A stretch of 64,000 nucleotides of DNA, taken from NCBI GenBank assembly GCA_018823325.1, contig JAHJIJ010000032.1, positions 62,001-126,000 on the forward strand, in the 5' to 3' direction. How positions within the stretch are numbered: the stretch's first letter is position 1; every line of letters begins with the position of its first letter. The notes below the pieces were generated by a model. The model ran no database searches. It was not told the DNA's origin and saw only the letters and a list, made by a program, of their open reading frames with translations. This DNA comes from Alphaproteobacteria bacterium. GTDB lineage: Bacteria; Pseudomonadota; Alphaproteobacteria; Sphingomonadales; Sphingomonadaceae. The position numbers and the translations under genes were made by a program. Below are positions 13,556 through 15,117 of the stretch, one piece after another.

Positions 13556-14125
13556 ATGGCTGAGCCGTTTCGTCTCGTCACGCCCGCGCCTGTCTACCTG
13601 CCCGCCTATCGCGCGGCGCTGGAAGCCGGCTGGTCGCCCGATAATGTGCTCGGCAATCTCGCGGCTCATCGCGAACTGGACCGGATCGACCGCGATGCCA
13701 TCGCCTTCCTGATGTCGCTCGATGACCCCACCGCCAAGGGCCCGCCCGTGGCCATGAAGGACGGCACCACGAGGCCGCGCCTGCCGGGCTATCGGCGCTG
13801 GATGTGGGATGGCGCATTCTGCGGCAGCATCGGCTTCCGCTGGCAGCAGGGCACAAACGAGATGCCCGACTATTGCCCCGGCCATATCGGCTTCGCGGTC
13901 GTGCCGTGGAAGCGTGGCCATGGCTATGCGGCGCAGGCGCTGCGCGCGCTGCTGCCTGATGCGCGCGCCCGGGGCCTTGCCCATGTCGACCTGACCACGG
14001 ATGAGGACAACATCGCCTCTCGCCGGACCATCGAGGCCTGCGGCGGTGAGCTAATCGGCAACTTCGAGAAAGATGCGGGCGACGGCGGAGGCCCGTGCGC
14101 GCGCTATCGGATCATGCTGCGATAA
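13556..14125 (+). CDS. GNAT family N-acetyltransferase
   Basis: A 189-residue single-domain acetyltransferase that transfers acetyl from acetyl-CoA to an unknown amine. The acetyl-CoA loop region reads VVPWKRGHGYAAQALRALL, a Q/RxxGxG/A pattern. It is followed by the typical TDEDNIASRRTIEACGGEL. The tail resembles the YxxxL end of the family. It is the last gene of the alaC/DUF2721 operon. The substrate cannot be deduced. Confidence 0.85.
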   Translation: MAEPFRLVTPAPVYLPAYRAALEAGWSPDNVLGNLAAHRELDRIDRDAIAFLMSLDDPTAKGPPVAMKDGTTRPRLPGYRRWMWDGAFCGSIGFRWQQGTNEMPDYCPGHIGFAVVPWKRGHGYAAQALRALLPDARARGLAHVDLTTDEDNIASRRTIEACGGELIGNFEKDAGDGGGPCARYRIMLR

Positions 14126-14538
14126 TCATCTCACCGGAACGGCAAGCAAGCGCCGTCACCAGAAATGAGAGGGGCCGCCGGAACCTCCCATCAGAGGCGC
14201 CGAGCGGCCCATCAGCATGGTCAGCGGCCGGAAGTGCCGCCACCCGGGGATTTACGCCGCGTTTTGGTCCCCAGAGGAAACCTCCGCGCGACCCGCCACC
14301 AATGCCTTAGCGGCAGGCTCCCCGAACGGACTTGACCGACCCCATTGCTGAACCATGAGACATCGGATCACCTCCTTTCGCTTGCGTTGAAACTCTTTCG
14401 CCGGGTTGGCTGAAAGCCCTGCTTCCCTGCGATGGCCTAGGTGTGAATCATCCCGCGCTTGCGAACAAGTCTTGTAATTATCTTTTTTCGAATCATAATC
14501 ATGCGCTCGCCGATTTGGGGCGAACTCGCTGGAACAGC
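14126..14538. other. 413-base gap holding a structured minus-strand element
   Basis: No ordinary-sized gene fits here. The minus strand shows a perfect extended Shine-Dalgarno, overlapping micro-ORFs at 14307-14363, and several nested hairpins. Examples are GGGCCGC/GCGGCCC at 14210-14204 with 14178-14172 enclosing CCTC/GAGG, and a CTGGGGA/TCCCCGG pair in the part read between about 14280 and 14245. The upstream part (14400-14538) is AT-richer around 14475-14500 and may hold the promoter. It could be a small mRNA or a noncoding RNA. Confidence 0.45.
14307..14363 (-). CDS. Putative 18-codon ORF with perfect Shine-Dalgarno
   Basis: The minus strand reads AAAGGAGGTGATCC (14378-14365), the full complement of the 16S rRNA 3' tail. 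The AGGAGG core is followed seven bases later by ATG at 14363. The ORF encodes MSHGSAMGSVKSVRGACR and then TAA. A second ATG seven bases inside, in another frame (14356), opens a 34-codon ORF that looks more protein-like (MVQQWGRSSPFGEPAAKALV at its N terminus). Which, if either, is translated is unknown. I do not recognise either peptide. Confidence 0.35.
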   Translation of the reverse strand: MSHGSAMGSVKSVRGACR

Positions 14539-15117
14539 CTAGCTCCGGCAGTCCTCCACGACGCGCCCGATTTCCGAAACCACCGGCAGAATGATCCGAG
14601 GCCCGCCAGCGGGCTCGATCGACACGCGACCGCGCGAGAAGGCGATCCAGTCCAGACCCGGATCATTGGCCGGACGCGTGACGACAAGCGCGCTCGACCC
14701 GGCAATGGGCTGCTGCGTTCCGGCCCAGTCCAGCGGCCCCTTGCTAGTCCGGATGGTGACGCGCTGGCCGGTCGCTCCCGCAATGATCACCGAGACCTGC
14801 CGACTGCTCCTCTGGCAGCGCATGGCCACCAGTGGCGTGGCCGACGTGGCGCCGAAGCTGGCGACACTCCCTGTGCCCCCGCTCTCGTAGCGCCAGTTGC
14901 CGGGCGTGACCGGCGCGACCTCCCACGGATCGCCCGATTGCGGCACGGCGGGCGGCGGCGCAGGCGGCGGCGGTGCTGGGGCGGGCACGGGTGCAGGCGT
15001 GGGTTCGGGCGCCGGCGAGCGACCGCCCGTATCCGGCACGACCTGGCAACCCGCCAGAGCGACGACGATGGCAAGGGATGCCGCGAGGCGCGGCGCGATG
15101 GAACCTGCAATACGCAT
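14539..15117 (-). CDS. Putative lipoprotein with proline-rich linker
   Basis: A 192-residue predicted lipoprotein. The signal ends with the lipobox LAGC (Cys about 24). Then comes a Pro/Ala linker (about residues 35-60) and a globular domain starting PGNWRYESGG that contains a pair of cysteines (AMRCQRSS and the C-terminal VEDCRS). The linker suggests it reaches across or towards the peptidoglycan. The domain is not one I can name. Its ATG starts two bases after the proA stop, so the two are cotranscribed. Confidence 0.75.
   Translation of the reverse strand: MRIAGSIAPRLAASLAIVVALAGCQVVPDTGGRSPAPEPTPAPVPAPAPPPPAPPPAVPQSGDPWEVAPVTPGNWRYESGGTGSVASFGATSATPLVAMRCQRSSRQVSVIIAGATGQRVTIRTSKGPLDWAGTQQPIAGSSALVVTRPANDPGLDWIAFSRGRVSIEPAGGPRIILPVVSEIGRVVEDCRS

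Follow-up and report, generated by a model that had tools for sequence, protein, structure and literature searches.

The window, the whole stretch of 64,000 nucleotides that was analysed, contains a GNAT gene (13556–14125, Pfam match) and, on the minus strand, a lipoprotein-like ORF without a Pfam match (14539–15117). The minus strand from 14163 to about 14440 has the layout of a small free-standing RNA gene (Table 1), in the order GAAAGGAGGTGATCC (14379–14365), one base, the ATG at 14363, 18 codons, a TAA that ends at 14307 and structured RNA down to about 14163. The GNAT gene lies antisense to this RNA. No co-directional gene follows the RNA here, as had been noted in the sequence-only reading of this DNA. 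Folding of the strand from 14440 to 14155 gives a better structure than shuffled sequence (z −2.41), which two of 200 shuffles equalled. Judged by its layout, the minus-strand unit may, at about even confidence, be a structured regulatory RNA that stands on its own and resembles a small mRNA, approximately 200–280 nt long, with predicted ends. The tRNA/tmRNA search returned nothing. The end of a 16S rRNA gene was dropped as the identity of the element because the match is only 14–15 nt long and the window has no Rfam match at the gathering cut-off.

Table 1. Features of the minus-strand RNA gene and of its putative promoter, in window coordinates
Feature	Position	Strand	Remark
Palindrome ACAAGACTTGT, CTTG as −35-like element	14465–14475	−	upstream part of putative promoter
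TGATTCAC with GANTC (CcrM-type site)	14443–14450	−	−10 region of putative promoter
15-nt Shine-Dalgarno (SD) GAAAGGAGGTGATCC	14365–14379	−	full complement of the 16S rRNA 3' tail GGAUCACCUCCUUUC; predicted pairing
18-codon ORF MSHGSAMGSVKSVRGACR	14307–14363	−	length kept in sphingomonad relatives; stop TAA
Helix P1, 5' strand CATGGTTCAGC	14347–14357	−	codons 3–6
Helix P1 extension, 5' strand GGTCGG	14336–14341	−	codons 8–10
Helix P1, 3' strand CCGGCCGCTGACCATG	14216–14231	−	CGCTGACCATG near-universal in relatives
Terminator-like hairpin GGGCCGC...GCGGCCC, tail CTCTCATTT	14163–14210	−	hairpin and T-rich tail in relatives

The early set of relatives comprised 234 loci from the named-genome scan, 80 further regions and the search loci, with some places doubled. 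One locus (L031, genome G353), which opens a different kind of ORF, 58 codons long, was excluded from the sphingomonad counts, giving 233 loci, of which 227 fit the gapless pattern and the other six have a 1-nt deletion in the SD. All counts given here are inflated by kinship among the sequences, which are not independent. In all 214 distinct sphingomonad loci the frame is 15–20 codons long, with 18 codons in 192 and 15, 16, 19 or 20 in the rest, and it ends with TAA (130), TGA (60) or TAG (24). Codon 19, taken from 212 distinct loci, is TAA in 118, TGA in 55 and TAG in 17; the remaining 22 have another sense codon with a stop close by, and TGG never occurs. Outside the sphingomonads, 55 distinct sequences were collected that match the SD-start pattern exactly or with one change, and 53 of them have 14–31 codons in frame 0 (the two exceptions have 56 and 58), versus 12 in frame 1 and 12 in frame 2. 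The same SD and start block opens an ORF of 56–58 residues with a signal-peptide-like start in loci L240 and L237 (G643, G353); the L240 peptide has no Pfam match, and in family f58 the block apparently serves a real small protein.

The peptide itself does not follow this pattern. In a sample of 60 sequences no in-frame stop was found, whereas shuffles contained 22 on average and just 2 of 200 were free of them; however, a purifying signature on the peptide was sought in codons 7–18 by entropy and by a substitution test, and none was seen. Across 147 distinct 18-codon ORFs, the entropy at codon positions 1, 2 and 3 is 1.11, 1.13 and 0.82, the third being the least variable, and substitutions, scored in 60 sampled sequences, are not more conservative than those of column shuffles (−0.645 vs −0.418, sd 0.383). 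By eye, the peptides are variable and mostly polar. The frame and its stop are thus kept and the peptide is not, with the predicted rod supplying part of the constraint; structure alone might hold some of the frame in place. In 106 of 177 loci the stop is no more than 3 nt from a predicted hairpin loop, compared with at most 7% when it is shifted two or more codons upstream; since shifts of +1 to +3 codons still leave 46–68% within 3 nt, the stop is near the apex and not at a fixed point. The sequence-only reading had also described a second ATG at 14356 with a 34-codon ORF. This frame is present, running to 14252, but its length is not kept in relatives (quartiles 7, 24 and 33 codons in 212 distinct sphingomonad loci; 32–36 codons in 24 and at most 10 codons in 58), and it was dropped as a conserved gene.

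As RNA, CAUGGUUCAGC..GGUCGG (codons 3–10) pairs with CCGGCCGCUGACCAUG, just 5' of the 3' hairpin, to form the predicted helix P1, which corresponds to codons 3–5 throughout the class and reaches codon 10 in the sphingomonads; Caulobacter-type members have CAUUGUC with GACAAUG at this site. CGCTGACCATG was found with at most one error in 223 of 227 loci and exactly in 210, and in the four misses the fetched stretch ends before the site. In the class-wide alignment A1 (37 sequences), 95% of 222 P1 cells are paired, versus 12–53% in slid controls. Changes on both sides were found in four of the six pairs, which 6 of 500 shuffles matched, and the covariation score was matched by none of 500; the predicted helix is supported by these compensatory changes across the class. 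In a cruder duplex test of 36 non-sphingomonad sequences, P1 beats shuffles (p ≤ 0.05) in only 18 and three more had no hairpin, an outcome that is read here as coming partly from wrongly chosen hairpins.

RNAalifold on 15 sphingomonad sequences predicts two further helices, P2 between the region of codons 12–16 and the stretch 5' of the 3' strand of P1, and P3 around the stop. Double changes occur in 11 of the 34 RNAalifold pairs, all of them in P2 and P3, and P3 pairs are broken or gapped in 2–5 of the 15 sequences. Of the comparison that the sequence-only reading had recommended among sphingomonads, the covariation of stems was found, but codon-type substitutions in codons 7–18 of the first ORF were not. 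Its proposal that the minus strand encodes a small mRNA, or an RNA of dual function, agrees with the conservation of the SD, the first ORF, the covarying helices and the 3' hairpin. A strict terminator scan gave no hit in this genome, where the T tail is weak; T tails are better in relatives. Near the 3' end, the micro-ORF MLMGRSAPLMGGSGGPSHFW was rejected, as its pattern meets similar frames in just 3 of 217 loci and it sits in the terminator-like arm.

A gene for a micropeptide, in which a peptide of 14–31 residues acts and the RNA structure just tunes its synthesis, would account for the invariance of codons 1–4 and 9 (Ser) and the near-invariance of codon 5 in the 147 distinct ORFs, as well as for the many homologues elsewhere that start with VSHCH or MSS. 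However, the invariant codons are fixed at their wobble positions too, and codons 3–6 and 9 fall within P1, which points to a constraint at the RNA level; the remaining codons vary freely, and by eye the peptides of different families have little in common. This alternative is considered improbable. Type I toxin mRNAs such as hok also have a short ORF and long-range 5'-3' pairing, in which the present RNA resembles them, but a conserved hydrophobic toxin peptide is absent here. The dual-function small RNAs Spot 42 (with a 15-residue protein, according to a title cited in PMC10117765) and rnTrpL likewise have a very short ORF in a small RNA; their peptides are reported as functional, whereas here there is no sign of selection on the peptide.

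The anti-16S SD, the ATG at 14363 and the 18-codon ORF, all placed by the sequence-only reading on the minus strand, were confirmed at these coordinates: AAAGGAGGTGATCC occupies 14378–14365, and one base more gives GAAAGGAGGTGATCC. The block is the sole match in the window at up to two mismatches (0.23 expected by chance) and the sole exact copy in this genome assembly. GGATCACCTCCTTTCTA was found at up to one mismatch in just two of nine genomes, both times at the RNA's own loci, so the searched genomes appear to have masked 16S genes or to lack them; the letters of the tail were therefore taken as printed for an oligonucleotide in excerpts of an S. meliloti 16S study (PMC6943124). In the literature search, the RNA letters GGAGGUGAUCC were met only in passages of that same paper, as oligonucleotides. 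Among 4197 ATG/GTG sites in the window, none is predicted to pair with the 16S tail as strongly as the ATG at 14363 (about −28.5 to −28.8 kcal/mol); the overlapping ATG at 14356 follows with −23.9 and the best unrelated site with −17.4 (mean −5.55, sd 2.52 kcal/mol). In predicted folds the SD is only partly open, with a mean unpaired probability of 0.42 and 0.30 in the core (120 of 177 loci). Extended SDs near the start have been described as functional in S. aureus (PMC13009471).

Such a block could also serve as a ribosome decoy, as the sequence-only reading had suggested: the 15-nt complement would capture 30S subunits or cover the 16S tail while the ORF and the rod only set stability. This would fit the complementarity to the whole tail, a start that no other in the window approaches, and the recurrence of AAAGGAGGTGATCCNRTGTCTCAT across the class, in 39 of 386 genomes at up to one mismatch (none for the reversed control). 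Nevertheless, a decoy could do without an in-frame stop at a defined distance and without an ORF that fits the rod, it requires a high RNA copy number, and the 15-nt complement is not absolute: single changes occur in some loci, and the six of 233 with the 1-nt deletion keep the 18-codon frame and score 83–98 bits with the model R2 described below. A decoy is considered unlikely.

A permissive search with RF01867, the Rfam family of the Caulobacter small RNA CC2171, gave a full-length match on the same strand (14172–14387, minus; model 1–159 of 159) with 30.4 bits, below the gathering cut-off of 75. The E-value is 5.8e-5 (271 bases), or 1.9e-4 for the whole genome, where the next match has 0.109. 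In an alignment that includes loci above the RF01867 cut-off, the P1 column pair 37/210 is G-C in 18, U-A in 17 and other in 2 of 37 sequences, a helix shared by the two forms. The predicted RNA is a diverged homologue of CC2171, its sphingomonad form, a homology to a described small RNA that the sequence-only reading had missed. The two share the strand, the order of parts, the SD block, the start region and a P1 that joins the codons after the start to the pre-terminator region; they differ in the start codon, ATG here and GUG in the Rfam consensus, and the sphingomonad form has a longer P1 and a CAAGnCTTG/GANTC block upstream. CC2171 is filed as a small RNA, and the Rfam family output names no ORF. 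Its source is reportedly Landt 2008. The literature search returned no paper with both CC2171 and Caulobacter or with both RF01867 and Caulobacter; the string 2171 is not in the main text of PMC11005374, PMC5988900 or PMC12559287, nor CC2171 in PMC8959179. CC2171 is already known as a small RNA, and its wide reach, length-fixed frame and predicted rod are unreported in the literature searched.

The Rfam filing of the Caulobacter homologue would suit an ordinary trans-acting small RNA with an incidental ORF and the SD-like block as its seed; however, the retention of frame 0 over the other two frames in the non-sphingomonad sequences and the alternative stop codons at the same place speak against an incidental ORF, and this explanation is considered quite unlikely. 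The RNA is widely distributed. In the class sample of 289 genomes, RF01867 reached E ≤ 0.001 in 66 and exceeded its cut-off in 10; with the other 56 falling below, the cut-off is evidently narrow. Among 14 control genomes at the same E-value it was found in Caulobacter vibrioides alone. The model R2, which contains 37 sequences of both the sphingomonad and the Caulobacter-type form, scores the window at 96.9 bits, with the same place (L001) being one of its rows. At E ≤ 0.001, R2 matched 104 of 397 genomes of the phylum, 103 of them in its own class and one outside (G1038); within the order it matched 61 of 64 genomes of its own family and none of 83 from other families. Of the weak R2 matches (approximately 32–40 bits), 20 regions were inspected. 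By blastn, 14126–14540 has a match in 173 of 199 genomes of the family, and no plasmid relatives. The exact-pattern scan found at least 120 stretches, 80 of which were listed by genome name; Sphingomonas, Sphingobium, Novosphingobium, Erythrobacter and Qipengyuania are among the matches listed. Rfam at gathering cut-offs, run on 40 related loci, reported only RF01867 (3 loci), tRNAs and one small SRP RNA.

Upstream, CAAGnCTTG is present in 150 of 177 non-redundant sphingomonad loci and CTTG-N12-18-GANTC in 123, the next best N-centred palindrome reaching 25. Where the full CAAGnCTTG is found, the spacing is exactly 16 in 106 of 110 loci (N is C in 47, T in 46 and A in 17). A generic sigma-70 scan gave no minus-strand promoter here. 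The sequence-only reading had considered an anti-SD RNA on the plus strand, by analogy with anti-SD small RNAs of Rhodobacter; this gained no support here, as the CC2171 model, the frame, the helices and CTTG-N16-GANTC all fit the minus strand, but the plus strand has a sigma-70-like match at 14472–14499, over the same intergenic region, and antisense transcription is possible. Outside the sphingomonads GANTC is not clearly enriched (11 of 40), and two GC-rich control motifs score higher. GANTC is the site of CcrM, and GcrA binds methylated GANTC, with activation proposed at YGAKTCK in C. crescentus, according to passages of PMC7987155. The sphingomonad site suggests expression tied to CcrM methylation; as these sites are followed by A and often have C in the middle, which does not fit YGAKTCK, control by GcrA is only a suggestion.

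In 195 of 220 sphingomonad loci the lipoprotein-like ORF precedes the RNA on its strand and, by this gene order, is a stable neighbour of the predicted RNA. Downstream, a crude ORF rule applied to 159 loci gave 82 co-directional, 71 opposite and 6 undecided ORFs, so that the direction looks random, as expected without a fixed partner. An opposite DUF2721 homologue follows in 27 of 220 loci and GNAT in 4, and since the largest downstream ORF cluster holds 71 loci, no constant partner was seen. A relic or standby leader (attenuator) of a downstream gene is very improbable: its layout would be like that of the S. meliloti uORF attenuating a DUF1127 gene (excerpts of PMC12218461), and co-directional ORFs follow in some relatives, with clusters of 68 and 45 loci, but the downstream gene here is antisense and the neighbours elsewhere are often opposite and not constant. 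The S. meliloti system remains similar in having a short translated frame whose RBS and first codons are able to pair, and ribosome availability is proposed, in the same passages, to be read through such a frame; its uORF, however, regulates a downstream gene, and here there is none.

Here it is proposed, with roughly equal confidence for and against, that the selected trait would be translation of the RNA and not its peptide, and that ribosome loading would compete with the closing helix. The very strong SD and a start one base later would load a 30S subunit, and the sphingomonad frame would then climb the 5' arm of the predicted rod and stop near its apical loop. By the size of the 30S footprint, a subunit at the start would cover the 5' strand of P1 (codons 3–5), so ribosome loading and P1 closure would exclude each other. 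Translation would open the rod, the ribosome ending near the apex and leaving the 3' arm single-stranded. Since neither a constant gene downstream nor selection on the peptide was seen, an RNA switched by ribosome availability or translation is the natural reading. Its output would lie in what becomes of the opened RNA or in what it pairs with, and not in a peptide or a downstream gene; this output may be sensing, a decoy effect or the freeing of the 3' arm. More tentatively, and with clearly lower probability, the RNA could be a trans-acting sensor of ribosome supply across the Alphaproteobacteria, in which capture through the full anti-16S-tail complement and translation of a meaningless, length-fixed frame would open the rod and free the 3' arm; the signal would be translation itself and not a metabolite, a peptide or a downstream gene. 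Rfam's Caulobacter small RNA family reaches many families of the class and has a frame that is conserved in length and stop but not in peptide, so that translation as an input to a free-standing small RNA can be tested directly on it.

Some members of the family have unusual contexts. The SD-start block occurs in two viral contigs, and one of them (IMG/VR; L295:3866-3889) carries a Caulobacter-type copy in which the P1 strands form a local hairpin, CATTGTC-ACTC-GACAATG; from this copy, the RNA gene might be an integration site. Three genomes of the sphingomonad genus g91 (G091, G291, G293) have two matches each, and G091 has one sphingomonad-type copy and one Caulobacter-type copy (MSHCHALNAASGTTVIASAGWLRA followed by a stop; L280, G091:C1:805104-805255). 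The sole member outside the class (L345, G1038:C34:59793-59982) carries AGAGGAGGTGATCCA and ATGTCTAGTGAGATA, with a matching AATCTCAC ahead of the hairpin; its SD has one change, its ORF is 26 codons long and, by eye, its P1 is formed by GTGAGAT and ATCTCAC.
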